NCBI RefSeq assembly: GCF_918697925.1
Contig: NZ_CAKKMF010000010.1
Coordinates: forward strand, 1 to 64,000
Origin: Arthrobacter sp. Bi26
Lineage (GTDB): Bacteria > Actinomycetota > Actinomycetes > Actinomycetales > Micrococcaceae
Reading direction: 5' to 3'
DNA: 64,000 nt
Of the stretch, positions 46,405 through 64,000 are shown one piece after another (the first letter of the stretch is position 1; every line of letters starts with the position of its first letter). The translations under genes were made by a program, and so were the position numbers. The notes beneath the pieces are model-generated. The model made no database searches. It was not told the origin of the DNA and saw nothing but the letters and a program-made list of their open reading frames with translations.

Positions 46405-47550
46405 ATGCACAGCATCATGCCGATCTTCGGAACCAGACCGGAAGCCATCAAGATGGCGCCGATCGTCAGCGCGCTGCAGGAGTCCCCGCTCTTCCGGTGC
46501 ATCGTGACGGTCACGGGGCAGCACCGCGAAATGCTGGACCAGGTCAACGAACTGTTCGGCATTGTTCCGGACCATGACCTCAACATCCTGCAGCAGGGGC
46601 AATCCCTGTCGGCCATCATGACGCGGACCATTGACGGGCTCGAAAAACTCTTCGCTGTCACCCGTCCGGACGCCGTCGTGGTCCAGGGCGATACCACCAC
46701 CTCCACGGCCGCCGCCATCGCGGCGTTCTACCACGGCATCCCGGTGGTGCACGTCGAGGCCGGGCTGCGCAGCGGTGACCTGCTCTCGCCGTTCCCCGAG
46801 GAAGCCAACCGTAAGATCACAAGCCAGATCACCCGCCTGCACCTGGCACCGACCTCCACCAGCCGGGAAAACCTGCTGCGGGAAGGCATCAGCCCGCAGG
46901 ACATCGTGGTGACTGGGAACACAGTAATTGATGCCCTCCTCGCCACCGTGGACAAGCGGCTTCCCTTCACGGACCCCCGGCTGGAAGCGCTGGCCGCCAG
47001 CGACCGCCGGGTCCTGCTGGTCACCACGCACCGGCGCGAAAACCAGGGCGAATCCATGCGCAGGGTGGGACGGGCGCTCGCGCGGATCGCCGACGCCGAA
47101 CCGGACCTCGTGATCGTGCTGCCCGCCCACAAGAATCCCGTGGTGCGTGAGGCAGTGCTTCCCGCGCTGGAGGGCAAGCCCAACGTGCTGGTGACGGAGC
47201 CGCTGGCCTACGGCGAATTCACCCGGATGCTTTCGCAGGCGCACATCGTCCTGACGGACTCCGGCGGAGTGCAGGAGGAGGCCCCCAGCCTCGGCAAGCC
47301 GGTCCTGGTGATGCGGGAGAACACGGAACGGCCCGAGGCCCTTGAAGCCGGCACCGTGAAGCTGATCGGCACCGACGAAGAGCGGATTGTTGCCGAGGTG
47401 ACCCGCCTCCTGCACGATTCCTCGCACTTCGCGTCCATGGCAAACGCAGTGAATCCCTACGGCGACGGCAAGGCCGCCCCCCGGACGGTGGCAGCCATCG
47501 AAGAGCTGCTCGGCGTCGGCTACCGGACGGCGGAGTTCAGCGGGGCGTAG
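46405..47550 (+). CDS. wecB: UDP-N-acetylglucosamine 2-epimerase (non-hydrolysing)
   Basis: A 381-residue GT-B-fold enzyme making UDP-ManNAc from UDP-GlcNAc for surface polymers. MPIFGTRPEAIKMAPIV, TGQHREML, VVQGDTTTS, HVEAGLRSGD and TDSGGVQEEAPSLGKPVLVMR are all family motifs. It stands in the surface-glycan region with GH128 and glycosyltransferase genes. Confidence 0.95.
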   Translation: MHSIMPIFGTRPEAIKMAPIVSALQESPLFRCIVTVTGQHREMLDQVNELFGIVPDHDLNILQQGQSLSAIMTRTIDGLEKLFAVTRPDAVVVQGDTTTSTAAAIAAFYHGIPVVHVEAGLRSGDLLSPFPEEANRKITSQITRLHLAPTSTSRENLLREGISPQDIVVTGNTVIDALLATVDKRLPFTDPRLEALAASDRRVLLVTTHRRENQGESMRRVGRALARIADAEPDLVIVLPAHKNPVVREAVLPALEGKPNVLVTEPLAYGEFTRMLSQAHIVLTDSGGVQEEAPSLGKPVLVMRENTERPEALEAGTVKLIGTDEERIVAEVTRLLHDSSHFASMANAVNPYGDGKAAPRTVAAIEELLGVGYRTAEFSGA

Positions 47551-47641
47551 GCGGTGGCCAAATCGTGAAACAATGAAGCTCCCGGGGAGGGAGTGCTCAC
47601 CCCCGCGCGCAGCCGAGAGAAAAGTGAAAGTGGACGTGAGC

Positions 47642-48514
47642 ATGGACCGCAGGGACTTCTTCCGACTGTCGTTGGCGGCCTCTGCCGCCGCCACGCTGGC
47701 CTCTTGTACGCCGGAACCTAACGACGTCGGCCAGCCACCAATCACCAGCCAGCCACCAACCAGCAGCCGTCCCACGCCGGCGGGGGCCCGCAAGGGCGTG
47801 GGCCTTGCCGTGGGCAAGAAGTACGGCATCCAGCAGCTCGACGCCTTGGATGTGAACTGGTTCTACACATGGGGCGCCTCATATCCCGCAGCCCGCCCCA
47901 CGCAGGATTTTGTGCCGATGATCTGGGGCAAGGAAAGTGTCCGCCAGAACGCGGTCGCAGAGGTACAGTACGAACTCGAGCTGACCCGGGCCGCGGAACT
48001 GCTTGGCTTCAATGAGCCCGACCATCCCGAGCAGGCAGACATGAAAGTGTCCTCGGCCATCAAGTATTGGCCCGAGCTCGAGGCATCCGGGCTGCGGCTG
48101 GGCTCGCCGGCGCCCGTTCAGGCACTGGGCGACTGGCTCAAGGAGTTCATGGATGAAGCGTCCTCGAAGGATCTCAGGGTGGACTTCATCACTATGCACT
48201 CCTACCCTTCCCCGGACTCCGAGTCCTTCCTGAACAGCGTCCAGGAGCTCTACGACCGGTACGAAAAGCCCATCTGGATCACCGAATACGCCGTCGCGGA
48301 CTGGAAAGCCTCCGAAAAGTCGCCCACGCGCTACACCGAAAAAGAGATCATGGCGTTCATGAGCGAAACGGCCGCAGGGCTCCGCCAGATGCCGTTCGTG
48401 GAGCGCTTTGCCTGGAAGACCCGGGCCGAAGGGGACCCCATCATGGGCGCCTCGGCCCTGTTCCGCAAGGACGGATCGCTCTCCCCCACAGGCGAGCTCT
48501 ACAAGTCCCTGTAG
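47642..48514 (+). CDS. Tat-exported lipoprotein, GH128-like glycoside hydrolase
   Basis: A 290-residue protein. MDRRDFFRLSLAASAAATLASC is a Tat signal (RRDFF) ending in a lipobox with Cys22, so it is likely anchored outside. After a Pro/Ser linker the catalytic barrel has LGFNEPD (acid/base E125) and PIWITEYAVADW (nucleophile E215), fitting the GH128/Glyco_hydro_cc family of beta-1,3-glucan-active enzymes. I start at ATG 47642; earlier in-frame GTGs would only bury the signal. A paralogue follows. Confidence 0.8.
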   Translation: MDRRDFFRLSLAASAAATLASCTPEPNDVGQPPITSQPPTSSRPTPAGARKGVGLAVGKKYGIQQLDALDVNWFYTWGASYPAARPTQDFVPMIWGKESVRQNAVAEVQYELELTRAAELLGFNEPDHPEQADMKVSSAIKYWPELEASGLRLGSPAPVQALGDWLKEFMDEASSKDLRVDFITMHSYPSPDSESFLNSVQELYDRYEKPIWITEYAVADWKASEKSPTRYTEKEIMAFMSETAAGLRQMPFVERFAWKTRAEGDPIMGASALFRKDGSLSPTGELYKSL

Positions 48515-48719
48515 GGGGCGCGCCGCGCCCGGGACGCCAACATCCGACGCCGTGGTGAGGCTCACCGTCCACTGAGAAAACCTTGCGTTTTTCCTGCGCT
48601 TACCCGGGAGTTTCCTGTGTGTTTTCCGTGCTAGGTTTGCTCGAGCTTGAGTGCCGGGGGAGTTGATGCACGTCGCCCGTGGTGCCGGCTAACAATCTGG
48701 TCCCTACCGAGAGCGACTC

Positions 48720-49574
48720 ATGGAACGCCGTAAGTTTCTTACCATGCCCTTGGCAGCTATGGCCGCCCCGGGGGCTCTGCTGGCTGCCAACGCGGCAACC
48801 GCCGAAGCGGTTGTGAGCGTCCCTTCCATCACCACGCCCGCCAACACCTTGAAGGGTTTCGGGCATGGCGGCAAGGACGCTTTGGCGCTCCAGCAAATCA
48901 AGAGCCTCAACCTGAAATGGCACTACACCTGGGGTTCGCACCCTAACGTGACCACCACCCCTGCCTTCGTGCCCATGATCAAGAGCGCCAAGACGATGCT
49001 GGAGCAGGACGCCCTTGGCTATGTCACACGCCAGTTGGCCGAAACGAAGGCCACGCACCTGCTCGGCTTCAACGAACCCGACGTCGTGGCACAGGCGAAC
49101 ATGAGCGTGGACCAGGCCATCAGCCTTTGGCCCAAGCTTCAGGCAACGGGCCTACGGCTCGGCTCCCCTGCCACGACCAGTCCGAGCAGCACCTGGTTGG
49201 CGGCTTTCATGGCGAAGGCAAAGACGAGAGGCCTCCGCGTAGACTTCATGACCACCCACATCTATGCCTGGCCCCGGGCGGACGACTTCCTGAACAAGCT
49301 CACCATGATGCACGAGAAGTACGGGAAGCCGATCTGGGTCACCGAATACGCGGTGGCGGACTGGGACGCCACCGCGTCCAGGCCCTGCAAGTACTCCCGC
49401 GCCCAGACAGAGGACTTCATGCGGGCCACCGTAGCCGGAATGCGTGCGCTCCCCTTCGTGGAACGCTTTGCCTGGAAGACCCGCCCAGCAGGCGACATCA
49501 AGATGGGATGCTCCACCCTGTTCAACGCGAACGGCACCCTCACCAGCACCGGACGCCTCTACGCGGCGCTGTAA
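48720..49574 (+). CDS. Tat-exported GH128-like glycoside hydrolase, second copy
   Basis: A 284-residue paralogue of the preceding gene. The signal MERRKFLTMPLAAMAAPGAL has a twin-arginine motif but no lipobox cysteine, so it is probably released. LGFNEPD (E119) and PIWVTEYAVADWD (E209) match the catalytic pair of the first copy, and the C terminus also shares PFVERFAWKTR. About 205 bases separate the two, perhaps with a separate promoter. A stem-loop follows. Confidence 0.8.
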   Translation: MERRKFLTMPLAAMAAPGALLAANAATAEAVVSVPSITTPANTLKGFGHGGKDALALQQIKSLNLKWHYTWGSHPNVTTTPAFVPMIKSAKTMLEQDALGYVTRQLAETKATHLLGFNEPDVVAQANMSVDQAISLWPKLQATGLRLGSPATTSPSSTWLAAFMAKAKTRGLRVDFMTTHIYAWPRADDFLNKLTMMHEKYGKPIWVTEYAVADWDATASRPCKYSRAQTEDFMRATVAGMRALPFVERFAWKTRPAGDIKMGCSTLFNANGTLTSTGRLYAAL

Positions 49575-51059: not shown

Positions 51060-51868
51060 CTACCCCGCCACTTTAGTGCCAGTGGACTCTTTGGTGACCG
51101 TGGAGTAGCCGGTCTTGGAGCCTGTGACCTTGACGGTGATGGTCCTCCCCGCGTCACCAGTGCGGACCTTATAGGTGGAAGCTGTGGCATCACTGATCAG
51201 AACGTGCGAGCGGTACCAACGGTACGTCAGCGTCACCGGCGCAGGTCCCCAGGCGCCGGGCACGGCCGTCAGGGTGGACCCTAGCGCCGCGGTGCCCGTG
51301 ATCTTGGGAATCGGCGTGGCGAGAGTGCCCTTGGCGATGGTAGCGGTGGCGGGGGACGTCTTGGAGGCCGTGTTGAAGGCAGTCTTGGAGCCAGTGACCT
51401 TCACGGTGATGGTCCTGCCCGCATCACCGGAGCGCAGCTTGTACGTGGCACTGCTGGCATCGCTGATCAACGTACCGGACCGGTACCACTTGTAAGTCAA
51501 GGTCACCGGCGCCGGGCCCCAGGTTCCGGGCACGGCGGTCAGGGTGGACCCGACCTTCCGGGTGCCGGCAATCGTCGGCGTGGGAGCCGCGAGGGTGCCC
51601 TTGACGATCGAAGCCGTGGCGGCAGATGTCTTGGAGACCGTCGGGTAGCCGGACTTGGAACCGGTGACCTTCACGGTGATCGTCGCACCCAGATCACCGG
51701 CGACAGGAGTGTAGGCGGCGCCGATGGCGCCGCTAATCGCGGTCCCCGAGCGGTACCACTGGTACGCCAGGGTCACCGGCGCCGGGCGCCAGCCGCCAGG
51801 CACCGCTGTCAGAATGGCCCCGACCTTCGCCGAACCTTGGATCGACGGCATCTGAGCGTTCAGGGAGC
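51060..51868 (-). repeat. Three Ig-like repeats in the acetylesterase-like protein
   Basis: Each copy reads GxxxxGxxLTAVPGxWxPAPV, TLxYxWYRSG/H, LISDAS/ATASTYK and TITVKVTGSKxxxxT. Copies 2 and 3 are also very similar in DNA, for example around GTGACCTTGACGGTGATGGT. Such repeats are common in secreted actinobacterial proteins and probably bind carbohydrate or the wall. Confidence 0.85.
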
Positions 51869-52733
51869 CGTTGTCGACGACGGCGGCGGCGGTGGCCTGC
51901 TGGTATCCGGATAGGTAGTTTTTGCCCAGGAATTCGACGCCGGTCCGGGAAAAGTGGATTATGTCGCCAGTATTCGTGCCGCCAGCCATGGCCGCGGCAA
52001 ATCCGGTGTACGGAACCCGCGACGGGGTTTCCCGGTGCGATCTGTCGACGTTGAGCCGGACCGGATCTGCTGCGATTCCCTCAGGTGCCATTTGCCCCAC
52101 CACGACGGGGAGGTTCGGGACCGCCAACTGGGACCGGAAGTAAGCAATGACTGTATCCAGCCTGGCATTGTAGCCGGAAGTGGTCAGCGTCGCGTTGTTT
52201 TCCCCCTGGTGCCAGAGGACGCCCTTGAGCTCAACCGTACGACCGGACGCCTTGGCCGCCGCGATGCCTTCGAGGGTCTGTTTTACCGCCAGCGCGGAAA
52301 GATCGAGTTCCGGGGCGGAGGCCGCGCCGGGAATCCACGTGAGGGTGGACGCGGCAGTGGTGAATCCCGTGCCGCCGTGCGCCGCCGGGATGAGCAGCAC
52401 CCCGACGTTGCCGGGCTGGGTCTTCAAGTACTCACGGGCAAGAGTTGTGGCCGGCGAAAGCCCGGTCGCGATGTCGTGCATGTCCAGGGGCACACCCGCC
52501 TTCTGAAGCTCGCGGTCACTCGCGCCAAACTCAAAAATCCGAGGGTCCGCGGGGTCATCCGTGCTACCGGCGGGCAGGCCCCGCCCGGACATATTCGACT
52601 GCCCCGCCGCCAGGAACACATGCAGGACGGTGAGCGTCTCCGCTGCCCGCGCAGGCGCCACGCCCGCGAGCATCAGGGCAGTAACCGCCAGGCCGACCAG
52701 CAGCCCTCGAATCCCGCTCGCCAAATTCCTCAT
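51060..52733 (-). CDS. Secreted sialate O-acetylesterase-like (SGNH) protein with Ig-like repeats
   Basis: A 557-residue exported protein. The signal peptide ends near residue 31 (APARAAET). The SASA-type domain has LAAGQSNMSGRG (nucleophile Ser46), PAAHGGTGF and GVLWHQGENN, and it would remove acetyl esters from glycans. From about residue 288 there are three Ig-like repeats of about 87 residues. Start ATG 52733 (MRNLASG) has GGGGAT upstream. With the neighbouring hydrolases and glycosyltransferases it suggests editing of an acetylated surface or environmental glycan. Confidence 0.8.
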   Translation of the reverse strand: MRNLASGIRGLLVGLAVTALMLAGVAPARAAETLTVLHVFLAAGQSNMSGRGLPAGSTDDPADPRIFEFGASDRELQKAGVPLDMHDIATGLSPATTLAREYLKTQPGNVGVLLIPAAHGGTGFTTAASTLTWIPGAASAPELDLSALAVKQTLEGIAAAKASGRTVELKGVLWHQGENNATLTTSGYNARLDTVIAYFRSQLAVPNLPVVVGQMAPEGIAADPVRLNVDRSHRETPSRVPYTGFAAAMAGGTNTGDIIHFSRTGVEFLGKNYLSGYQQATAAAVVDNGSLNAQMPSIQGSAKVGAILTAVPGGWRPAPVTLAYQWYRSGTAISGAIGAAYTPVAGDLGATITVKVTGSKSGYPTVSKTSAATASIVKGTLAAPTPTIAGTRKVGSTLTAVPGTWGPAPVTLTYKWYRSGTLISDASSATYKLRSGDAGRTITVKVTGSKTAFNTASKTSPATATIAKGTLATPIPKITGTAALGSTLTAVPGAWGPAPVTLTYRWYRSHVLISDATASTYKVRTGDAGRTITVKVTGSKTGYSTVTKESTGTKVAG

Positions 52734-52973
52734 TACGGATCCCCATTCCGTCAATGGGCGGCGCACCACCCGAACCTGCAAAGACGCAGAACCCTTAACC
52801 CTAGCCCTAAAACACCCTGCCCTGTCCGCGGTTGACGGTCGAGTCGCCGATTAGTTCCTTTCTGCGGTGTCCCTGAGTCTAGATCGGTGACGGAAACCAC
52901 CGGCACCTATATGCCCTGCTAGTCATTGCATTGGTGGTCGGCCTGATCTTCGGAGGGCGGCCGCCGCCGAGGT

Positions 52974-53886
52974 CAATACATCTCGACGGTGACCAGATGG
53001 GCGTCGACCAAAAACGAGGTTCTGGCCTTGCGCGGGCATCTGCTGTGTGAGCAAGTGACGCTGGTGGTGATGGAAGCCACCAGCGACTATTGGAAGCAGT
53101 TCTATTTCCTGCTGGAGGACGGGCTGAACGTGATGCTTACGAACGCCCAACAGGTAAGGAACATGCCCGGGCGCAAGACCGACGTCTCGGACGCGGCGTG
53201 GCTGGCCCAGCTCGGCGCGTTCGGACTCGTGCGTGCCTCGTTCGTGCCGCCCGAGCCCGTCCGTCAGCTCCGGGACCTGACACGCACGCGCACGATGTCC
53301 ATCCGGCAGCGCGGCAGTGAGATCCAGCGCCTGGAGAAGCTGCTGGAAGACGCCGGGATCAAGCTGTGTTCCGTGGCCACGGATCTGACAGGTGTCTCCT
53401 CCAGGGCGATGCTGGGGACCCTCATTGAGGGCCAGGGGATCCGGCCGTACTGGCCGATCTTGCCGTCTACAGCCTGCGAACGAAGATTCCCGCCCTGACC
53501 GAAGCACTCAACGGAAGATTCAACGCCCACCATGCGTTCCTGGCCGGACTGCACCTGAACATCATTGACGGACACACCCTGGCCATAGAACAGCTCAGAG
53601 CCTGGACTGAAGCAGTCCTGGCACCCTTCGGCCCGGGACCTGCCGGTGTACTTCGGCGCCAAATACCGGCGCCTCGCGGCCAGACGGGGACCCATGAAAG
53701 CCCTTGTAGCCGTCGAACATGCAATACTTACCGCGGTCTGGAACATGCTCAGGACCGGGGAACTCTACAGGGCCCCGGACCCGACTACTACACCCGCCTG
53801 CAACCGGCCAAAACGCGGGCACGCGCAGCCAGCTCGAATCCATGGGTTTCACGGTCACCATCGAACCCACACAACAAACCGCCTGA
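52974..53886 (+). pseudogene. IS110-family transposase, 5' truncated, internally deleted and frameshifted
   Basis: Frame 1 (52974-53440) reads LVVMEATSDYWKQFYFLLED, NAQQVRNMPGRKTDVSDAAW, VPPEPVRQLRDLTR and EDAGIKL. After a frameshift ADLAVYSLRTKIPALTEALN continues to about 53635. There the transposase core is missing, and the C-terminal part resumes as VYFGAKYRRLAARRGPMKAL, AVEHAILTAVWNM, with a second frameshift near 53776, ending QLESMGFTVTIEPTQQTA. The first about 45 residues are also absent, so the element cannot move. Confidence 0.88.
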
Positions 53887-54099: not shown

Positions 54100-55449
54100 T
54101 CAGTTGGCGGAAGCGGCCAGGTCCAGCAGTTCGCTCTTGTGGCCGAGCGAGACGATGTCCCAGCCGGCAGCGCTCCACTTGTCGTGGTCCAGGACGTTGC
54201 GTCCGTCGAAAATGCGCTTGCGCGAAACCGCAGCAGAGAGTTCCGCAGGATCGACGTTCACGAACTCGGTCCATTCCGTCAGCACCATGACCAGGTCGGC
54301 GTCAGCCGCTGCCGTGGCGAGCGAATCGACGTAGTTCAGGCGCGGGTACCGTTTGCCGGCGTTGGCGTTCGCAGCGGGGTCGTAGACGCTGACGTCCGCT
54401 CCGCTGTTGAAGAGCCTGGCCGCCACGTCGAGGGCCGGTGAATCGCGGACGTCGTCGCTGTTGGGCTTGAACGCGACGCCGAGGACGGCAATGCGCTTGC
54501 CCTCGAGCGAGCCGAGCAACGTTTCGGCAACGTGGACCGCACGGTCACGACGGCGGAGGTTTACTTCGTCGATTTCGTTCAGGAACCGCATGGTGCTGTC
54601 CAGGCCGAGCTCGGAGACCCGGGCCTGGAGCGCGCGGATGTCCTTGGGCAGGCAGCCGCCGCCGAAGCCGATGCCGGCGTTGAGGAAGCGGCGGCCGATC
54701 CGGGCGTCGAGGCCGATAGCATCCGCCAGGGTGCGGATGTTGCCGCCAACGGTCTCGGTGACCTCGGAGAAGGCGTTGATGAAGGAGATCTTGGTCGCAA
54801 GGAACGCGTTTGCAGCGACCTTGACCAGTTCCGCCGTCTCGAAGTCCGTGGCGATGAACGGGGTGTCGCGGCTGATGGCGTCGGCGTAGACCTCACGCAG
54901 GGTGGTCTCGGCAGCGTCGGAGTCAGAGCCGATAACCAGGCGGTCCGGACGCAGGGTGTCCTCCACGGCGAAGCCTTCCCGCAGGAACTCGGGGTTCCAG
55001 GCGAAGTTGACCTGAACGCCGTCGCGCGATTCTTCGGCGACGAGGCCCTTCAGGCGACGTGCTGAGCCAACCGGAACGGTGGACTTGCCGACGATCAGGG
55101 AGTCCTTCGTGGCGGCACGTGCAATCGCTGTCACGGACGCGTCAACGTAGGTCATGTCGGCAGCGTGCTCGCCGGCCCGCTGAGGGGTACCGACGGCAAT
55201 GAAGTGCACGTCACCGAAGGCGCCGGCTTCTTCGAACGAGGTAGTGAAGCGCAGGCGGCCGGATTCTGTGTGCTTGCGCAGCAGTTCGGGCAGGCCAGGT
55301 TCGTGGATGGGTAGTTCGCCTCGGCTGAGGCTATCGATCTTCTCTTTGTCGACGTCGACACCCAGAACTTCGAATCCGAGTTCCGCCATGCATGCCGCAT
55401 GGGTCGCGCCGAGGTATCCCGTACCGATCACGGTTAGTCGTAGTGTCAC
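54100..55449 (-). CDS. ugd: UDP-glucose 6-dehydrogenase
   Basis: A 449-residue enzyme making UDP-glucuronate for surface polysaccharides. The Rossmann loop reads RLTVIGTGYLGATHA, and the active site contains K220/N214 (VAANAFLATK) and nucleophile C266 (GFGGGCLPKD). VLGVAFKPNSDDVRDSP opens the C-terminal UDP-binding domain. The start is GTG 55449, with GGGGGAC upstream; the frame runs 18 codons further without conservation. Confidence 0.95.
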   Translation of the reverse strand: MTLRLTVIGTGYLGATHAACMAELGFEVLGVDVDKEKIDSLSRGELPIHEPGLPELLRKHTESGRLRFTTSFEEAGAFGDVHFIAVGTPQRAGEHAADMTYVDASVTAIARAATKDSLIVGKSTVPVGSARRLKGLVAEESRDGVQVNFAWNPEFLREGFAVEDTLRPDRLVIGSDSDAAETTLREVYADAISRDTPFIATDFETAELVKVAANAFLATKISFINAFSEVTETVGGNIRTLADAIGLDARIGRRFLNAGIGFGGGCLPKDIRALQARVSELGLDSTMRFLNEIDEVNLRRRDRAVHVAETLLGSLEGKRIAVLGVAFKPNSDDVRDSPALDVAARLFNSGADVSVYDPAANANAGKRYPRLNYVDSLATAAADADLVMVLTEWTEFVNVDPAELSAAVSRKRIFDGRNVLDHDKWSAAGWDIVSLGHKSELLDLAASAN

Positions 55450-55873
55450 TAGTCCCCCAGTAGCCGCAGTTGATTTCTTTGCCTTGGGCGCCAAACAGCG
55501 CAACCAAACGCGTCCACTATATAACTGTTGCTCGCGATATCCGATTTCAGTTCGCCACCGTGACCAACGTCATCCCTCTACAACTGGTGTCGCGCACTTG
55601 AAGGCCGGATGTCTTGAGTACTGACGCATGATGCTCGCGGGTCTCGATTCCCAAATGGCCGCGGACATTGACTTTCCGACGACAGAGCAAGGCCTGCTGA
55701 CGACGAGCGGCGCCGGGCTGGGCGGTGGAAGCGCTGGTCCGCTTAGCGGCTCCCAAGCCCGACAGGACGTCAATCCACGTCCACGGTGCCGCTGGATCAT
55801 CACGGAACGACCAATCACGGAACGATGGACTTCGGGCCCTAATCAGCTTGCTCTGATGTGCTGAGCCCAGAGG
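55450..55873. other. Intergenic stretch upstream of ugd
   Basis: About 420 bases. No protein motif is recognisable in any frame. It should hold the ugd promoter. A short direct repeat, ATCACGGAACGA, occurs twice near 55798-55826. AT content is higher close to ugd (around 55510-55570). Confidence 0.5.
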
Positions 55874-56788
55874 CTATACGTAGAGGACGCTACTTATGTC
55901 GCAATAGTTCGATCTTCTGTTGATGTTGTGACCCCAGAACCCACCGCCATTCTTGTGGTGGGTCTCGGTAAGTTCGCCGTAGAAGCCCTCTAGCAGATCG
56001 TTGAAAGTCGGAATCACGTCGACGGAACGGAGCCCTGCGAAGAAATCAGCCTTTTTCTCCTGAGGATTCAACCAATTACCGCCGCGCCCCTGATCCACCT
56101 GTCCCACGGAGAGCTCGTATTGACGCCTCTGCGCGGCCCTCTCCAAGGACATTTCTTGATCCACACTTCTCAGATGGAGCAAACCCAAAGACGTCTCGTA
56201 CGCAAAGTCCTCGCGAGATCGGTGCAGCCCAGCACCGAATTCACTGCGGGCCTTCCAGATTACGGGCTTTGTGTACCCGGAGGCGAAGAATCCGTAGCCG
56301 CGCTGCAATTCAATGTCCTGAGACGGATCAAAAGGCGCCTCTTTCTCCGTGTGCTGGACAATTTCGAAGCCGATTGGCGCGGTTATCCCGTCCAAGGACT
56401 GCAGCTTGGGCAACACTTCATCGGCGCCGATCCCCAAGCCGACGAGCAATTCGTCGCAGTCCGTTGCTACGACGATGTCATAGCAGTGCAACAACATCTT
56501 GGCAAAGCCGGACATCGCCATCGCCTTGAAGTCGTCGTCAAAGGGCACTGGGGGGATACTGACAAAATTGAGGTTTACACCGTTGTAGCCGGGGCTATTG
56601 GCCAGAGACTCCGACAGCGATGGGCTGGAGGCGTGGTCGATCACGTAAAAGGCCGCTTCTGGACAGATGCGAAGCCCGTTTTTTACCCACGCCTCAAGCA
56701 GGATGGTCTCATCCCGTGCCATCGTAAGGAAGGCAATGGGAGCCTGGCGGCTTCTCGCCGGCCAAAACTCAAGGCGAAAATCCGCCAT
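55874..56788 (-). CDS. Glycosyltransferase family 2-like protein
   Basis: A 304-residue protein. PIAFLTMARDETILLEAWVK and FYVIDHASSPS open a GT-A fold of the Glyco_tranf_2_4 type, and IVVATDCDELLVG supplies the DxD-like metal site. The C-terminal half (LLHLRSVDQEMS, HKNGGGFWGH) is typical of this group. It would transfer a sugar in the cytoplasm. ATG 56788 is chosen because GGAG lies six bases before it; the frame continues upstream but without conserved sequence. It has no close downstream partner. Confidence 0.75.
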   Translation of the reverse strand: MADFRLEFWPARSRQAPIAFLTMARDETILLEAWVKNGLRICPEAAFYVIDHASSPSLSESLANSPGYNGVNLNFVSIPPVPFDDDFKAMAMSGFAKMLLHCYDIVVATDCDELLVGLGIGADEVLPKLQSLDGITAPIGFEIVQHTEKEAPFDPSQDIELQRGYGFFASGYTKPVIWKARSEFGAGLHRSREDFAYETSLGLLHLRSVDQEMSLERAAQRRQYELSVGQVDQGRGGNWLNPQEKKADFFAGLRSVDVIPTFNDLLEGFYGELTETHHKNGGGFWGHNINRRSNYCDISSVLYV

Positions 56789-57361
56789 TCTAAACTCCAC
56801 TCGATAGTGATCCAGGCAGATGCTGAATAAGATCAACGACAGTCGCCCTCGCTTCTGAGGGTGTGCGCGGTCGAGGCCCCCAACAGCATAGAACAACTCA
56901 AGTGGCTTCCGTACTTTCGCCGTCGCCTCGGGCTGCAGCACCCGTGCGTCGTCGCGCGCCCGCTTTGCAGCGACCGGTGTGAAGGGCTTCCTGGCGCCGT
57001 GATGGGCAATCGATTCGTTGAGATAGGCTGAATCGCCCTATTAATGTCCGAGGCTGCGAAGCAGAGGGGTGAGCGGCCACACGGAGCGCGATGCGTTTAG
57101 AACCAGGACGACGGCTCAAATCCAGTATGACCAGGATGAAGGAGCCGCAGTGAAGGAATCGGCTCGATTTCGTAGAATCCGACGCACAGTTCGAGGCCGG
57201 CGGTACGGCCGTGCTGATCGAGAGGATTCCACCAAGATTAATGGGTCTGAGTCGGGAGTCCATCAAGCGGCGGTCGGTCCCTCTCCTCAAGTACCGAGCA
57301 GTGCAACACAAACTAGTCATCGCCAGGATCGCCAGGTGCGCAGCCCAGCCCAGCCCCGCCC
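56789..57361. other. Intergenic stretch, no intact gene
   Basis: About 570 bases with no recognised protein. Codon usage is mixed and AT-richer than the flanks. The right end runs into an IS481-type transposase remnant, so part of it may be older insertion-sequence DNA. Confidence 0.5.
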
Positions 57362-57532
57362 AAGCCGGAAGGCTGGGCCTACCGGCAGCCGTTCACATCC
57401 AATCAGGCCCGCGCTGATGCCCTGCAGCCATGGCTAGACGTCTACCACATCCACCGGCCCCACAGCAGCCTCGGAGGCAACCCACAAATCAGCAGGTGCA
57501 ACCAAACTACTGACTGTGTACATCTAGGCTGA
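57362..57532 (+). pseudogene. IS481-type transposase C-terminal fragment
   Basis: The plus strand reads KPEGWAYRQPFTSNQARADA, LQPWLDVYHIHRPHSSLGGN and PQISRCN before TGA 57530. WAYxxxxxSxxxRxxALxxW, YNxxRPHSSLGG and PPxSR are the hallmarks of the rve-domain end of IS481/IS3-type transposases. The catalytic part is absent. Its last nine bases overlap the end of the convergent ATP-grasp gene. Confidence 0.8.
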
Positions 57533-58897
57533 CGCGTGCGCCGCCTCATATCCGGCCACAACCCGCCGGGCATGTTCGTAACCTCCGTCTGCCAAGGCCT
57601 TGAGAGTTTCCAGCGCGGACTGGTCACCCGAACTCAACCGCACCTCCGCCGCCCGCGAGGTGTGCCACGGGTTGCCCGCTGATCGCTCATCATGGAAGGC
57701 GGTTGCGGCTTCCTCAAACTCAGCCAATCGCCGCGTTCCATAGAAGTGCTTACCGCCGCGTCGGACGGCGGCCTGAATGTTAAATGCCTGGCTGCCATCG
57801 CCGCTGAGGTGGCCGATGACGTAGGCCGCCAGGCTAAAGACGGCCTTTGTAGAATCCTGCACCAGCAGAGCGGGCAGGAGTTGTGCATAGCGGGCATCGC
57901 CCTGTGACGCGCCGCCGGAGAGCCTCGCCACGAGGTGCTCGTCGGCCACTATCGTCGCGTTCGGCGACAGATCCTGCCGGAACTTGTCGAGGTCGATATC
58001 AAACCCGGACAAGGCTGCAGCACGACCAGTCAACATGGCAGCATCGAGGGCCCGGATGATGCGTTCGCTGTAGCGGAGCATGCCTGTGTCGTCGCCGCCG
58101 GAGGCGAAGGTGAACTCGCCGAAGACGGGACCGTTGGGCCCGTCGTAACAATCCACCTTAACAAACCGGGTTTCGAGGTTCAGCGACAATGTCGACGCCA
58201 TTTCCAGCATCGCCCCCGCGAACCGTGGGAGGACGTGCTGCTCCGGCAGCCATCGATTCTCATCAATCGAATAGTCCTTCCCGAGCTCGAGCGGGATAAA
58301 TGCCCCGTCGAACAGGGCAACCCGCGGCGGGGACACATTCCGGTCGATTTGGGTGATGTGGCTGACCTGTCCCCGGAAGGCATAGATCTTATAGTCCAAC
58401 GGAACGGGCTTGCCTGCCGGCAATGACGGAATGCATTCCTCAGCGAGCCAGTAATCAGGCGCGGCACCCACTGCCTTGATGTCGGCGGCAGCGAGGACCT
58501 TCATCCTCAACAGGTCGAGGTAGGAGCCTTCGCCGAGCTTCTCAAGCACGTAGACACCGGAAGCCGAATGGCGGTTCGGCTGCTTGATCACGAGCCTGTC
58601 CCCGAACAGCTCCCCCGCTGCCAAGGCCTCGGCCGCGCTGCTTGTCCGCGCATACCGCGGGACGGCATATCCGGCCTGCTCAACGTACTTGTAGGCCGTT
58701 TCCTTGTCGTCCAGTTCCCACGGTACGGGATCCAGCCCAGGATCGTTTCGCTGGTTGAACCTCTGGCGCATCAGCCCCAGGAACGAAATCCCGTCCATGT
58801 GCAGTTCCTTCCCTAACTCTTCGCGCGTGGGCGGACATTGTTTGCCGACCGCCGTTCGGTGGAGTGTCAACCGGCACTCTGCGCTGAGTGCGGTCAT
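57524..58897 (-). CDS. TupA-like ATP-grasp protein
   Basis: A 457-residue protein. LDDKETAYKYVEQAGYAVPR, RLVIKQPNRHSASGVYVL (ATP-grasp lysine) and VPLDYKIYAFRGQVSHI, FVKVDCYDGPNGPVFGEFTF (metal ligands) match the ATPgrasp_TupA family, named after the teichuronopeptide protein that joins amino acids to glucuronate-containing polymers. The C-terminal 150 residues are extra, ending in a Sel1-like helical pair. ATG 58897 is six bases from GGGGAG. UDP-glucuronate from Ugd nearby fits this role. Confidence 0.72.
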   Translation of the reverse strand: MTALSAECRLTLHRTAVGKQCPPTREELGKELHMDGISFLGLMRQRFNQRNDPGLDPVPWELDDKETAYKYVEQAGYAVPRYARTSSAAEALAAGELFGDRLVIKQPNRHSASGVYVLEKLGEGSYLDLLRMKVLAAADIKAVGAAPDYWLAEECIPSLPAGKPVPLDYKIYAFRGQVSHITQIDRNVSPPRVALFDGAFIPLELGKDYSIDENRWLPEQHVLPRFAGAMLEMASTLSLNLETRFVKVDCYDGPNGPVFGEFTFASGGDDTGMLRYSERIIRALDAAMLTGRAAALSGFDIDLDKFRQDLSPNATIVADEHLVARLSGGASQGDARYAQLLPALLVQDSTKAVFSLAAYVIGHLSGDGSQAFNIQAAVRRGGKHFYGTRRLAEFEEAATAFHDERSAGNPWHTSRAAEVRLSSGDQSALETLKALADGGYEHARRVVAGYEAAHASA

Positions 58898-59163
58898 CAT
58901 AATCTCCCCGCGATCTAGCGGTGGCGGAGCACCCAATCGGAGTTCTTGACGGAATTGACCCATCAGAGTGTCGGCGTGATCTCATCGCATATCCTACGCT
59001 GGCGGCGGACATGCTGCGTACGCTCCCGGCGGGGACAGCCGGGAAGGCCCTGGAGGCCCAGCATCTGAAGGCATACTGGCCTCGACCACGGCCCGCGACA
59101 CCCGGCGAGTAGCGCGCCCTTGGTGTGGAAGAATCGAGTCCAGAAAACAGTGATGAGGGAAAA

Positions 59164-60516
59164 ATGCTCAAAGGCTACGTCGATTCAATCTCACCGAACA
59201 AGCGGTCGCTCACTGGCTGGGTTCAAGTAGGAGAGGGCGGTGAAGACCCGGATCTCTGGCTCGATCTCGACGGCGAACAGGTTGGAAAAGCTGTCTTCGG
59301 TGCCGAACGCGCGGACGTCCGTTCCGCTCTGGGGCTGGCCAACAAGTCCTTCACCCTGACTCTCGAGACACCTGTCCAGAGTCAGAACGTCCTGGCGAAG
59401 GCTCACCAAGTAGCTGCGGTGGCCGACGGCGTGAGGAGTTTCATTCCGCTGGGTGGCAGCGCCTACCACCAGATGCTGGCAGATTTCGTCCGGGCCTCGG
59501 CCGCCAACGTCAGGGGTGCGCGCGAGGTGATACTTGATGCCCTCGAAGTCAACGAACTCAAGCTCTCAAAGCACTTCGCGGAAGTGAGGGAGTCGTCGGA
59601 GGCAGGCGAACTCTCCTACCTTGGATTTCCGGTCGGGTTGCGGTCCAGTGACGACGTCGGACAGATTGGCAAGGACGGCCACCTATTCCTGACGGGCGGC
59701 AGCAACGCGCTGCGAGACCAGTACAGGGCGCCCGAAGACGCGGCGGAGGAGGCCCTGCTGGAAAAAAGGGCCACTATGTGGGCCTCGGCGATCCGCACCA
59801 ACAGCGAGGTGCTGGACGATCTGGGAATCCCGTTCCTTCAGGTCGTCATACCCGAGAAGTTGACGGCCCTGCGGCACCTCGCCCCGCTGGCAATAACTGG
59901 CCCGACCCCGCTGTACCGTCGCCTCGATGAACTCATGGCGAATGAGCCCAACTACGTGAGTTTCCTGAGCATGTTCGAGGGCTGGTCGGGTGATATCGGA
60001 GCTTGGCAGCGGAACGACACTCATTGTTCCCCGGCCGGCACGTTGGCAATGGCACGTGCACTTCTGGATCGGCTCCCCGGCTGCGATCCAGCCATTCTTG
60101 ACGGAGTCGAACTGACGGGAACCATATACCGCAACGGCGATCTGGCGCCGAAGTTCTTCGATATCCCGCTCTGGGACAAGCAGCAAATTCCTGCCCCTGG
60201 AACACTGGGTGATCCAGAAATCGAACTCGCGTTCTCTCATAGTCCGGGAAATTTCGTCGGCTCGCACAACGTCTGGACTAACGAGAGCGCGCCGATCAAG
60301 AAAAAGGTGGTTGTCTTTGGCAACTCATTCTTCGGTAGCGTGACGAGCCCAACCCGGTTGAGCTGGTGGTTCGCCCGTCTCTTCAGCGAATACCACCTGA
60401 AGTGGGAAAACACCGTCGACATGGACTACGTGCGGGACGTCCGTCCTGACTATGTCATCGCGCAGTCAATCGAGCGGTTCCTGGTACGGCCACCGAGGAT
60501 CCCAGGCACGAGCTAG
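59164..60516 (+). CDS. AlgJ/AlgX-like SGNH hydrolase with GW-type N-terminal domain
   Basis: A 450-residue protein without signal peptide. An N-terminal beta domain (about 1-100: GYVDSISPNKRSLTGWV, ADVRSALG) resembles the small domain attached to many glycosyltransferases. Then GKDGHLFLTGGSN, NDTHCSPAGTLAMARALL and VVFGNSFFGS give the AlgJ-type G-x-D-G-x-LFL, D-x-H and catalytic-Ser motifs. Such proteins O-acetylate exopolysaccharides. The cytoplasmic location would be unusual. GAGGG lies before ATG 59164. It is divergent from the ATP-grasp gene. Confidence 0.72.
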   Translation: MLKGYVDSISPNKRSLTGWVQVGEGGEDPDLWLDLDGEQVGKAVFGAERADVRSALGLANKSFTLTLETPVQSQNVLAKAHQVAAVADGVRSFIPLGGSAYHQMLADFVRASAANVRGAREVILDALEVNELKLSKHFAEVRESSEAGELSYLGFPVGLRSSDDVGQIGKDGHLFLTGGSNALRDQYRAPEDAAEEALLEKRATMWASAIRTNSEVLDDLGIPFLQVVIPEKLTALRHLAPLAITGPTPLYRRLDELMANEPNYVSFLSMFEGWSGDIGAWQRNDTHCSPAGTLAMARALLDRLPGCDPAILDGVELTGTIYRNGDLAPKFFDIPLWDKQQIPAPGTLGDPEIELAFSHSPGNFVGSHNVWTNESAPIKKKVVVFGNSFFGSVTSPTRLSWWFARLFSEYHLKWENTVDMDYVRDVRPDYVIAQSIERFLVRPPRIPGTS

Positions 60517-60521
60517 CGGCA

Positions 60522-60566
60522 TAACCGAAGACCCCGGCAGATTCAGTCTGCCGGGGTCTTCGGTTA
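60522..60566. terminator. Strong two-way terminator hairpin
   Basis: TAACCGAAGACCCCGGCAGA and its exact complement TCTGCCGGGGTCTTCGGTTA pair over 20 bases with a 5-base loop. It lies six bases past the SGNH stop and about 40 bases past the convergent glycosyltransferase stop, so it can end both transcripts. No long T-run is present. Confidence 0.8.
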
Positions 60567-60607
60567 CCGTCGCGAAAGACGTAAGTCCTCTCGTGCTGCC
60601 CCAGGGC

Positions 60608-61723
60608 TTACTTCTGGCTTCCGGCAAGTCGTTGGGTTGCCCGGAGCCAGTTCCGCACGTAGTGTCCGACCAGGTTCTGCTGCCGCGAATGCGCACTCGC
60701 CTCTGCTCCTTCCAGCGTCGAAGGCGCCGCCGGGCGTTCGTCCAATGTCAACAACACTTCCTGAAGAGCAGTCGACAGCGTGAATCTCGACAGGTCCCCG
60801 GACTTCAACTCGACCGCAAAGTCGGTCGCTGCTTCAATGCCGCTGGCCAGTTCGGTTGCGATATCTTCCGGACTCTTGACTGCGAAGCCCCTGCCCGAAA
60901 AGTTATGGAATTCCGCCACGGCAAAGTTTTCAGCATCCAGCCAGCCAGGGCCACCGAACTTGTCGTAGCAATATACCGGCACACCGGCCAGCATCGCGTA
61001 CTGTACCGTCTTGCCAATTGTCACCACCCCGTCCAGCGCAGCAAGCGTCTCGGGCGTGACGCGGGCGGCGACCGAGTTGGCCACATCGCCACTGCCAATG
61101 GGCAAAAAATCCACTCCGGCCGGCGGGTCTTCCAGCACCTTACCCAGCTCGCCAGGGACATGGTTAGAAACGACGCCGATCAACTGCTTCCTGCCCCGGC
61201 TCGGCTTGCCCGCCGCTCCGAAGGCATCAGGGGCGGGGTTGGCAAATACCTTCATCCGGGCCGGGTCAAACGCCTCTGCCGCCCCGTCTGCGAGATGCGC
61301 CTCCAAGGTCTCTGCAGAGTTGTAGACGTGCAAGCCCGCAAGCTTGGCCTCCACGACTGCTGACCACGACGATTCCAGAGGGTGGGCAGACGACATGTGA
61401 TTGAACACAAACGCCGTCACGCCCGGATTCTGGAGGAGCCACTGAGGGACGATCTGGTGATGGATCCATGCCAGTTGCGGCGGATCGCTCTCTAGCACCT
61501 TTGAAAGCTGGTCGTCGTCGATGTCGAAGTAGGAAATATTGGCGCGGTCGGTCAAATGCGACAGTACCGGCCTGCCAGCGCTCCATGTTCCGATGGTTAC
61601 CTTGGAGCCCGCAGCAGCAAAATGCTCCGCGAGCTCCAAAGTGACCATTTCCGAACCGCCGTAACTTACCAAGTGAGCTTGGGAAATAAAGACGTGGGAA
61701 AGCGGCGATGTGCTGTTATTCAT
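60608..61723 (-). CDS. Glycosyltransferase family 4-like protein
   Basis: A 371-residue GT-B fold protein. FISQAHLVSYGGSEMVTLEL is the N-terminal GT4 loop, and GVPVYCYDKFGGPGWLDAEN in the second domain carries the nucleotide-sugar glutamate region. ISYFDIDDD and FNHMSSAHPLESSW lie between. It would transfer a sugar onto a lipid- or polymer-linked acceptor. It follows the next glycosyltransferase by about 47 bases in the same transcript, ended by the hairpin at 60522-60566. Confidence 0.78.
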   Translation of the reverse strand: MNNSTSPLSHVFISQAHLVSYGGSEMVTLELAEHFAAAGSKVTIGTWSAGRPVLSHLTDRANISYFDIDDDQLSKVLESDPPQLAWIHHQIVPQWLLQNPGVTAFVFNHMSSAHPLESSWSAVVEAKLAGLHVYNSAETLEAHLADGAAEAFDPARMKVFANPAPDAFGAAGKPSRGRKQLIGVVSNHVPGELGKVLEDPPAGVDFLPIGSGDVANSVAARVTPETLAALDGVVTIGKTVQYAMLAGVPVYCYDKFGGPGWLDAENFAVAEFHNFSGRGFAVKSPEDIATELASGIEAATDFAVELKSGDLSRFTLSTALQEVLLTLDERPAAPSTLEGAEASAHSRQQNLVGHYVRNWLRATQRLAGSQK

Positions 61724-61770
61724 GTGCGGGTCTCTCAGTTGGTTCCCGTTGCCTTGGCGAACAGTCGTAT

Positions 61771-64000
61771 CTACAGGGCAGGCGTGCTGTCGTTGTCGGC
61801 ACCATCCGACACTGATTTCCGGTGCGCCCGGGCTGCCTCCAGCAGGGTCTCGGCACGCTTGTCAAAGTTGTGTTCGTCGCGGATCATCTGGCTGATAGCA
61901 GCCATCTCCGAATCATCGGGGAAGCCGCTCGGATCAGCCAGAATTTCGGCAAGCTGCTCGAGCGAAGCATATGTCCGGACGGCGCCCTTGAAGATCTCGT
62001 CGATACCGTCCACGTCGTCACTGATCACCCTCGCACCGGAGGCCACGGCATCGTAGAGGCGGTTGTTGGCGAAGCCCCACCTTGCCATGTCTTCAAAATG
62101 ATCGTTGAGGACAATTGTGGACGAGTTGTAGACAGCAGCAAGGTCATCGTTGTCGATGAAATCGGCCACCACCAATTCTGCCGGGATGAACTGCTCCCAC
62201 CGGGGGCCCCACACACTGACATTTTGGCCAAGGCCAACACAATCGGCGACGATCTTGCGCCCAATTGGTTTTCGCGGGCCCCCCACGAAAGTCAGGTCGA
62301 ACTGGGGGCTTCCCTCAGTCGCCGCCGTCGGGTGGAATCGCTTCGGATTCGTGGCCTGAGGCAGGTAATGGGCTTCGATCCCCCACTCGCTGCGGACATA
62401 CTCGCACCAGATTCCGGACGCCCCGAAAATGAGGTCGAACTCAAGGAGTTCTTCTTTGGCAATCAAGTCCGGCCGGCTGATCGCCCACAGGATATTTGTC
62501 TTTCCTGGCTGAGGATCGCAGCGGTGCAGGCCGCGAATGACCACCACAACATCGTCCAGGTGATTGGAGGGCCGCGCGAGGGCTGCGGCCCTGTCGACCA
62601 CAACCTCCTGGCCGCGGGCAGTGAGTGCCTCTGCAAGGTCCGCCGCATACGGAACGTCGCCCCAGCGGTCTCCGCCGACACTGAACTCAGCGCCGATCTT
62701 GATCGCCCATCGCAGACGCTCCGCCGGATCCGACCCGGAGGTCTGCCTGACGACTACCGGCGCCGCAGGCTGGAGCCTCGGGTTTCGTGGCGCAGTGAAC
62801 GCAACGACGTCCAGGCCAATGTCACGGTAGTGGGCTTCAACCGGCCGCGCAGGCTCCTTGGATGCACTCAGCCAATCCGCATCCGCGGCGGACAAGGAAG
62901 GGTGCTCCGCATAAGCATCCGCCGAATGGTCTACTGCGACCGCTGCGCCCTCCACGACGAACTCCCCTGCCCCGGAGTTGCCGAGCCTCCGCAGAAAATC
63001 GGTCACTGCCGCTTCGCCGGCAAAGATCGTATTGAATCGTCCTAGCCGTTCGAACGCCTCCCTTCGCACCACAAAGGCGGCTGGTGCCAACTCGTCAACC
63101 ACCCTGCCGCCGTGGCGCCGGGCATCGGCAATGTTCAAGCCCCGGAACAAGGGGACGGCGAGGCTGTTGCGGTGCGCAACAGCGCCAGCGGAGACGACGA
63201 CTCCAGCGGGATCGGTCAACAGGGGCTGTGCCGCAACGACGGATGGATGGTCAAGCTGTTCCAGGAGCTTGTCTAGGGCACCGGCGCGAAATTCGACATT
63301 TTCCTTGGCGAACAGTAGGTTCGCTCCGTCAGCGTGGACGGAACCAATGTTGTAGGCGATCGCTTCCGTGTAGCGTCGCGGCAGCTTGATGTATTTTAAG
63401 CCGGACAGGCCAGCGAGAGCGGCCCGCAGGCGCAGCGAAGTGCGGAAGCCCTGGACCTCGTCGAGCACAACCAGTTCGACCAAGTCGGCGTCGACAGTTT
63501 CCTGGATCCGGCGAACATTCCGGATCGCCTGGTCGATGTTCTCCGTGATGCGCATTATTACCGACAGGGAAGGAACCCTCACCCGTTCCGGAACAGAATC
63601 AGGAACAAACCGCCCTTGAACGTTCTTGCCCAGTACCGCGTATTCCCAGTTCCCGGACTCCTTGCGGGTGATTCTGTCATCGTTGTCGTCGTCTACGTAA
63701 TCGCAACCGATAAAGGGGAAGTACTCGATGCTGGTCGTCTCGGTAATCCGAAGGACGAGGTCATAGTCAACCCAGCGGCGCAGAGAGTTGTCGAAACCGC
63801 CCAACTCCCGGATAAAGGACGTCCGCACCACGAGAACATTGAGATCCACGTAGTTGCGCACCAAGAGTTGATCAGCCGTGATGGGTTGGCCGGTGAATTC
63901 CAGCCGGCCGTTCAGCATGCGTACGGCAGAGTAGCCCGCCTGGCCGCCGCTGGCAATGAGCCCGGCATGCATGTTCCTAAGAAAATCCGGTCGCCAGGTG
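61771..64000 (-). CDS. Large multi-domain glycosyltransferase (GT2 parts plus CgeB-like GT), runs off right edge
   Basis: The frame stays open through base 64000, so the start is outside the window; at least 742 residues are visible. The first part (WRPDFLRNMHAGL, VVRTSFIRELGGFDNSLRRW, DYDLVLRI) is the C-terminal half of a GT2 domain. The middle is a second GT2-like domain (PSLSVIMRITENIDQAIRN, YTEAIAYNIGS, FVVRREAFERLGRFN). The last 300 residues are CgeB-like (Glyco_trans_1_2): NILWAISRPDLIAKEE, DLTFVGG, NNRLYDAVASGARVISDDVD. Such fused enzymes build repeat units of surface polymers. Confidence 0.8.
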   Translation of the reverse strand, partial: TWRPDFLRNMHAGLIASGGQAGYSAVRMLNGRLEFTGQPITADQLLVRNYVDLNVLVVRTSFIRELGGFDNSLRRWVDYDLVLRITETTSIEYFPFIGCDYVDDDNDDRITRKESGNWEYAVLGKNVQGRFVPDSVPERVRVPSLSVIMRITENIDQAIRNVRRIQETVDADLVELVVLDEVQGFRTSLRLRAALAGLSGLKYIKLPRRYTEAIAYNIGSVHADGANLLFAKENVEFRAGALDKLLEQLDHPSVVAAQPLLTDPAGVVVSAGAVAHRNSLAVPLFRGLNIADARRHGGRVVDELAPAAFVVRREAFERLGRFNTIFAGEAAVTDFLRRLGNSGAGEFVVEGAAVAVDHSADAYAEHPSLSAADADWLSASKEPARPVEAHYRDIGLDVVAFTAPRNPRLQPAAPVVVRQTSGSDPAERLRWAIKIGAEFSVGGDRWGDVPYAADLAEALTARGQEVVVDRAAALARPSNHLDDVVVVIRGLHRCDPQPGKTNILWAISRPDLIAKEELLEFDLIFGASGIWCEYVRSEWGIEAHYLPQATNPKRFHPTAATEGSPQFDLTFVGGPRKPIGRKIVADCVGLGQNVSVWGPRWEQFIPAELVVADFIDNDDLAAVYNSSTIVLNDHFEDMARWGFANNRLYDAVASGARVISDDVDGIDEIFKGAVRTYASLEQLAEILADPSGFPDDSEMAAISQMIRDEHNFDKRAETLLEAARAHRKSVSDGADNDSTPAL

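Follow-up and report, generated by a model that had tools for sequence, protein, structure and literature searches.

A TupA-like ATP-grasp ligase and an SGNH protein resembling AlgJ and AlgX are encoded back to back near the end of a 64,000-base stretch of Arthrobacter sp. Bi26 DNA (the window, which makes up the first 64,000 bases of a contig of 84,835 bases). The question raised by this arrangement is whether the two make up an enzyme system of their own. Such a system, in which one enzyme amidates a uronic-acid polymer with amino acids and the other O-acetylates it, had been proposed from the letters alone (the sequence-only reading), and all open reading frames (ORFs) named there are present in the sequence. 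The cluster concerned spans about 45-79 kb of the contig, past the window end, and the finding described here covers its near half. By gene content, the SGNH gene tracks a giant glycosyltransferase (GT) fusion better than it tracks the ligase. We give somewhat better than even chances to a reading in which a teichuronic-acid-type polymer is decorated in the cytosol by the TupA-like ligase, by a CsaC-like enzyme, and by the SGNH protein together with the GT fusion, before its export by an ATP-binding cassette (ABC) transporter.

Genomic partners of the SGNH gene

The ligase gene (57524..58798, − strand, 424 amino acids) and the SGNH gene (59164..60516, + strand, 450 amino acids) are divergent, as had been noticed, with their starts about 365 bp apart. 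Their joint occurrence was examined in sampled genomes (G labels, G000 being the query genome) and in fetched loci (L labels). Among 295 Micrococcaceae genomes, the SGNH family was found in 4 and the ligase family PF14305 in 40, and the query alone had both. The same held for 396 genomes of the phylum, where the counts were 9 and 18; eight of the SGNH-profile matches in that sample were weak (E 3.5e-14 to 2.9e-4). One TupA locus was then taken from each of 38 of the 40 PF14305 genomes (G000 and G091 were left out), together with flanks of about 10 kb as far as the contigs reached, and compared with 36 control stretches. The SGNH family was absent from all 38 loci and all 36 controls, and the TupA profile matched nothing in the stretches around 16 other SGNH genes. 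No PF14305 match was obtained in G173, G219 and G341, three genomes in which SGNH and the GT fusion are both present.

Within the genus the picture was at first more favorable to the pair. TupA-like genes occur in 5 of 150 congeners (G000, G077, G091, G098 and G139), and three of the four SGNH genomes are among them (p 0.0016 without the query). This excess vanishes once the cluster core, whose GT is present in 8 of the 150, is accounted for (p 0.37). Co-occurrence of the two families in Arthrobacter was borne out in raw counts but not given the core. The notion of a fixed TupA-SGNH pair, and with it the claim of a new two-enzyme system, was rejected on these results. No description of an ATP-grasp and SGNH pair, or of a similar Arthrobacter locus, was found in a literature search that left subscription journals mostly outside its reach. 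An ATP-grasp domain fused to a different SGNH-like esterase is described in animals in the available part of one report (PMC2824669).

A closer partner was found in the gene for a 1026-residue GT fusion, which lies at 61771..64000 on the − strand and continues to contig position 64851. It had been described as a GT2/GT2/CgeB fusion; the GT2 (PF00535) and CgeB-type (PF13524) domains stood up to profile searches, and the second GT2 was only weak. In the 150 congeners the SGNH query matched G000, G077, G082 and G098, and the GT fusion matched exactly the same four (p 1.9e-6 with the query left out, and 0.029 once the core is taken into account). The two genes are adjacent or one gene apart in six of the eight actinobacterial loci with a clear SGNH relative: they are direct neighbors on the same strand in G082, G219 and G341, convergent in G173, and separated by one gene in the window and in Sanguibacter, where the gene ends overlap. 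They lie about 5 kb apart in G077 and are unlinked in G098. G302 has the GT fusion and TupA but lacks SGNH, as does G358 with a partial fusion, so that the dependence, if any, would run from SGNH to GT.

Two further observations concern the neighbors of the GT fusion. At L018:4793-6247 and L021:6964-8418, proteins of 484 amino acids without a Pfam match adjoin it in the place of the SGNH gene; they are 60% identical and, by eye, we take them to resemble asparagine-synthetase-type ATP-pyrophosphatases. G077 carries genes for synthesis of 3-deoxy-D-manno-octulosonic acid (KdsB, KdsA and KdsC families, with an SIS/CBS protein; L021:13701-16843) in a Gram-positive wall-polymer locus, where they adjoin a 759-residue protein bearing a distant SGNH domain.

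Catalytic features of the SGNH protein, the ligase and a CsaC-like hydrolase

The SGNH gene most likely starts at 59164, with GAGGG ahead. By itself, its product had no match in Pfam, NCBIfam or the PDB. One collection scan found relatives at 17 loci, in the genera Arthrobacter, Paeniglutamicibacter and Sanguibacter, in alphaproteobacteria and gammaproteobacteria, and in a small number of bins. A profile of 18 members matched AlgJ (4o8v) at E 3.8e-12 and PatB1 at 1.4e-3 and 2e-3, and Pfam ALGX (PF16822) was found at E<=0.1 in 13 of the 18, the window member not among these. Pro230, Lys232, Asp285, His287, Gly386, Ser388, Glu437 and Arg438 are invariant in the 18 aligned proteins. An AlphaFold model (predicted local distance difference test score 83.4) placed the catalytic domain at residues 160-448 (59641..60507, +), in which D285 and H287 (60016-60024) precede S388 (60325-60327), giving a permuted layout with D-x-H ahead of Ser. 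Structural comparison of the model gave Z 20.0 with PatB1 (over 258 residues at 3.6 A), 19.7 with a DHHW protein, 17.9 with AlgJ and 15.4 with AlgX, in agreement with the AlgJ/AlgX-like assignment made earlier.

The N-terminal domain had been thought to be of glycosyltransferase type, which was not confirmed. Residues 1-103 of the model (59164..59472, +) form an Ig-like beta-sandwich, and a fold search with this domain alone reached at best Z 7.3, among unrelated Ig-like and starch-binding domains, with no specific relative. A profile of the domain matched no GT in the loci searched, where it found only SGNH proteins, a five-repeat protein (L089) and one short, marginal ORF (L034); nor did it match the enterobacterial GT that had resembled the domain by eye. 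The N-domain of Staphylococcus aureus TarL appeared at Z 6.5 in the search with the whole model and was absent from the rows for the N-domain alone, and its likeness may be merely a common arrangement.

The absence of an export signal, noted earlier, held up by hydropathy. No signal or transmembrane segment was seen in the SGNH protein, whose maximum over 19 residues is 0.96, compared with 2.32 for the ABC permease of the cluster and 2.05 for a secreted neighbor. Seventeen of the 18 family members do not exceed 1.54, the higher value of 2.43 in L038 is at an internal position, and no member has a convincing N-terminal signal by this measure. A membrane-bound O-acyltransferase (MBOAT) partner was also missing: PF03062 gave no match at E<=0.001 in the genome, which is 99.98% complete, and the control gave matches in 3 of 14 genomes. 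A scan of the cluster proteins, which covered all but a few of the ORFs there, showed neither AT3 nor MBOAT; for AT3 (PF01757) no genome-wide search was made. A PF16822 search of the query genome found nothing, as did its control, and is hence uninformative.

The protein thus appears, from sequence and model, to combine an acetyltransferase fold and catalytic layout with neither an export signal nor a detected MBOAT partner. It shares the SGNH fold and the permuted D-x-H before the nucleophile Ser with AlgJ/AlgX and PatB1, which act outside the cytosol with an MBOAT protein, as described in the accessible portions of the reports (PMC9487903, PMC12148441). In AlgJ-, PatB- and Dlt-type systems generally, as far as these partial sources describe them, an MBOAT or AT3 protein carries the acyl group across the membrane to an SGNH enzyme outside. 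Acetylation of the canonical AlgI/AlgJ or PatA/PatB kind, which the AlgJ likeness had suggested, was rejected on the two absences. With the export signal missing and no MBOAT detected in the genome, one must ask which donor and acceptor this conserved SGNH family of AlgJ fold would use, and the GT encoded at the locus is a concrete partner with which to put the question.

Relatives of the SGNH protein occur in several other settings. One SGNH domain is fused to a sulfotransferase domain (L040:12866-14584), and one relative lies within a polysaccharide cluster on a Bradyrhizobium plasmid. At L035:9203-11783 a relative is followed by genes that we recognize, presumably correctly, as acyl carrier protein-like and FabZ-like dehydratase genes, hinting at an acyl-carrier donor.

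The ligase matched PF14305 with 49.5 bits against a cut-off of 25, in support of its assignment as TupA-like. Its ORF is open to 58963. Since homologues begin at an internal ATG, ahead of which an AAGGA-type ribosome-binding site is found, the gene is most likely 57524-58798. Degeneracy of its active site, which would have counted against the sequence-only reading, was not found: K32, K72, E120, D135, K137, D216 and E228 are invariant in a six-row alignment, and the active-site positions are judged from this to be intact. We assign their roles at ATP and metal sites by analogy with ATP-grasp enzymes in general. For the third metal ligand the ligase rows carry Thr in place of the Asn of a D-Ala ligase, in an alignment that is itself non-significant, and no relative of solved structure was found at E<=0.01.

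Some loci of this ligase family contain genes of the kind expected for uronate polymers. A UDP-sugar dehydrogenase gene lies within about 10 kb in 10 of the 38 TupA loci and an ABC ATPase gene in 9, compared with none of the 36 controls in either case. A 62% identical relative in G098 directly adjoins ugd. On an Enterobacter plasmid (L139:1734-14654), a full-length relative of 37% identity is located between two GT genes of a capsule-like cluster, where it adjoins a nucleotide sugar dehydrogenase gene and an ABC polysaccharide exporter. According to the available part of one report, the TupA-like domain of Campylobacter Cj1438 forms an amide at C6 of glucuronic acid (GlcA) (PMC11800379). This C-terminal amidoligase of the C. 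jejuni capsule resembles the window ligase in its TupA-like ATP-grasp fold, its UDP-GlcA-making cluster and its GT2 partner; it is fused to its GT, whereas the window ligase is a separate gene, and the likeness is drawn from published description. A likeness drawn in the same way connects the ligase to Bacillus halodurans TupA of teichuronopeptide synthesis, the namesake of PF14305, which serves a glucuronate-containing wall polymer. That polymer is a polyglutamate-polyglucuronate, with one other alkaliphile known then, in the part of the text available (PMC8153356).

Relatives of the ligase are also carried by mobile DNA. ABC-export capsule-like genes with a TupA-like ligase were seen on an E. 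coli plasmid (L138:9956-16409), and 3 of 5426 E. coli genomes have a plasmid-borne ligase near-identical to that of the Enterobacter plasmid. One TupA relative was found among viral contigs.

A further candidate for acetyl transfer lies just outside the window, at contig 65014-65925 (L002:1014-1925), where a CsaC-like alpha/beta hydrolase is encoded. Its relatives adjoin GT genes of the cluster in G077, G082 and G098. A profile of four relatives matched CsaC (PDB 6yuo, where it is named SacC) at E 2.7e-4, with Ser placed on Ser114 and Gln on Gln138. In a wider alignment S147 and Q171, 24 residues apart, are invariant in all nine rows, as are two His. The available text on CsaC names Ser114 and Gln138 and reports that Gln138 is conserved in several uncharacterized bacterial proteins (PMC7501274). 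CsaC of Neisseria meningitidis group A acts on N-acetylmannosamine (ManNAc) units of assembled capsule and uses acetyl-CoA; its polymer is phosphate-linked ManNAc, in contrast to the uronate-type cluster here, and the contig gene is tied to its Ser114-Gln138 region by a weak profile match (PMC7501274, same portion). CsaC-like genes were present in 6 of the 38 TupA loci (5 at >=90 bits) and in none of the 36 controls, and four of the six show the Ser elbow and the Gln (L103, with GASGGG, L128, L131 and L136). Amidation and O-acetylation may therefore recur together, through a CsaC-like enzyme rather than an SGNH protein. On sequence grounds, we take the 65014-65925 gene to be the likelier O-acetyltransferase of the two. 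In G091 (L023) a CsaC-like domain is followed by what we take, by eye, to be a hexapeptide-repeat acetyltransferase.

A proposed decorated uronate polymer and alternative readings

The link to a uronic-acid polymer, for which Ugd and WecB had been cited, was strengthened by the rest of the cluster. WecB, a UDP-GlcNAc 2-epimerase (46405..47550, +), scored 469.8 bits against TIGR00236 (equivalog cut-off 210.15), and Ugd, of the UDP-glucose 6-dehydrogenase family (54100..55503, −), 431 bits against TIGR03026 (subfamily cut-off 189.8). Beyond the window end, WecC (contig 70985) passed its NCBIfam equivalog cut-off, and a two-gene ABC transporter is encoded by an ATPase gene and a permease gene at contig 74228 and 75105. 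Several GT fusions were found in a profile scan of the cluster proteins. The gene set for UDP-uronic acid, glycosyl transfer and export is thus present. Such a set is expected where an ABC-exported polymer contains N-acetylmannosaminuronic acid (ManNAcA) and perhaps also GlcA, in the manner of teichuronic acids, and the window end probably represents the variable middle of a cluster of that type.

Teichuronic acid of Micrococcus luteus consists of ManNAcA and Glc in the part of the report seen (PMC3005890). The M. luteus and Streptomyces clusters have in common with the window cluster the UDP-ManNAcA route, GTs and the wall-polymer context, again in partial texts (PMC3005890, PMC13274773). As these texts describe, gene content of such clusters differs between close relatives, and the Streptomyces polymer contains diamino-uronic acids, ends in a 4-O-acetylated uronic acid and is attached to teichoic acid. 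The accessible Streptomyces text contains no occurrence of ATP-grasp, SGNH, amidation or ABC transporter.

What was observed here is which genes are present, the families they belong to, the catalytic positions that are conserved, the missing export signal and the genomic associations; from these we infer every reaction, its substrates and the location of the chemistry as follows. UDP-ManNAcA from WecB and WecC and UDP-GlcA from Ugd would be polymerized in the cytosol by the large GT fusions, and the chain would be decorated there before the two-gene transporter exports it. The TupA-like ligase would, at the expense of ATP, couple an amine or amino acid with the uronate carboxyl, in the manner of the Cj1438 domain, and the CsaC-like enzyme would transfer acetyl groups from acetyl-CoA. 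The SGNH protein would serve the giant GT fusion rather than the ligase, probably transferring or removing an acyl group on the product of that GT, with its beta-sandwich holding the glycan. An amidated and O-acetylated uronate polymer, as the sequence-only reading had it, is plausible from known kinds of enzyme, with the CsaC-like gene instead of SGNH as the best-supported candidate acetyltransferase. The module would then combine a ligase of known type with a CsaC-like, probable acetyltransferase encoded beyond the window end, leaving the cytosolic SGNH protein as its unexplained part.

Several results weigh against this reading. In Arthrobacter sp. Leaf141 (G098), the SGNH gene (L016:2946-4295) and a second TupA-like copy (L016:19098 to L017:369) lie outside the cluster, 15 kb apart and with no recognized polysaccharide genes between them. 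The SGNH match of G077 is weak (E 4.4e-7, within the 759-residue protein). TupA is about 100 kb away from the cluster core in G139 and occurs without the core in G091. The nine-row profile of the hydrolase matched CsaC at E 0.1 with another alpha/beta hydrolase ranked first, and two of the six CsaC-like genes near TupA (L107 and a partial one in L133) showed no GSSxGG elbow. Core and accessory genes are rare in the 150 congeners (core GT in 8, TupA in 5, SGNH in 4), so that the statistics rest on few, non-independent genomes.

The divergent neighbors, the TupA-like gene in three of four SGNH genomes of the genus, the intact catalytic positions in both proteins and the AlgJ/PatB1 fold are what would be expected if ligase and SGNH were a dedicated pair with SGNH as the acetyltransferase. 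We consider this quite unlikely, since the query alone has both among the 295 and 396 genomes, neither family appears around the other in the loci compared, the excess in the genus is not significant given the core, and the GT fusion and the CsaC-like gene are better partners. More credible, yet doubtful, is that the SGNH protein is an esterase that trims misplaced acyl groups or corrects the product of the GT fusion in the cytosol. Most SGNH enzymes are hydrolases, and acetylesterase activity in vitro is also described for AlgJ and AlgX in the part of the source available (PMC9487903); the lack of a detected MBOAT donor and the presence of a likelier acetyltransferase point the same way. Its closest folds, PatB1, AlgJ and AlgX, are nevertheless polymer O-acetyltransferases.

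The ligase, for its part, might produce small amide building blocks or short peptide side chains that are used elsewhere, without acting on a polymer carboxyl. The 28 of 38 TupA loci that have no UDP-sugar dehydrogenase gene within about 10 kb, and the TupA genes of G139 and G091, would fit such a role, which seems improbable to us in light of the G098 relative that adjoins ugd, the enterobacterial relative next to a sugar dehydrogenase gene, and the glucuronate amidation published in the text cited for Cj1438 (PMC11800379, seen in part). Within the preferred reading of cytosolic decoration, a bolder and rather unlikely version would make SGNH an MBOAT-free cytosolic acyltransferase of AlgJ/PatB1 fold, which takes acetyl from acetyl-CoA, or an acyl group from a carrier protein, and caps the chain end made by the GT fusion while its beta-sandwich grips the polymer, so setting chain length before export. 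If that were true, the polymer would carry amides from the TupA-like ligase, internal O-acetyls from the CsaC-like enzyme and an acyl cap from SGNH, all added in the cytosol. With or without the cap, an actinobacterial wall polymer may carry amides as well as O-acetyl groups, and its charge would then be altered. In Streptomyces, variation in such wall polymers decides which toxin particles bind, as stated in the available text (PMC13274773).

Other genes and features of the cluster

Between WecB and the window end, several other genes were characterized. Two Glyco_hydro_cc (PF11790) proteins are encoded at 47573..49574 (+), and relatives of theirs are encoded by this cluster in G098, G082 and G077. 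A GT2-like protein of 355 amino acids (55874..56941, −) has a weak PF13704 match, and its relatives of 27-29% identity lie near SGNH relatives in L040 and L041. The glycosyltransferase-like protein of 371 amino acids at 60608..61723 (−) matched PF13439 weakly, below the cut-off; its homologue of 62% identity adjoins the GT fusion in G098.

The GC content is 0.58-0.62 over 55-64 kb and mostly 0.62-0.67 over 44-55 kb. Fewer promoter and terminator sites were predicted in the sequence than in shuffled versions of it. Genes that we take, by recognition, to be housekeeping genes flank the cluster, recG-like and others on one side and ddl-, gpsA-, plsC- and murA-like genes on the other.

Inside the cluster, at window 51060-52781 (−), a protein with a signal-like N-terminus carries an SASA-type acetylesterase domain (PF03629), which could deacetylate the polymer after export. 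Between this gene and ugd, at window 52923-53746, there are stretches that by eye we take to be transposase-like fragments, a possible trace of the arrival of the variable part.

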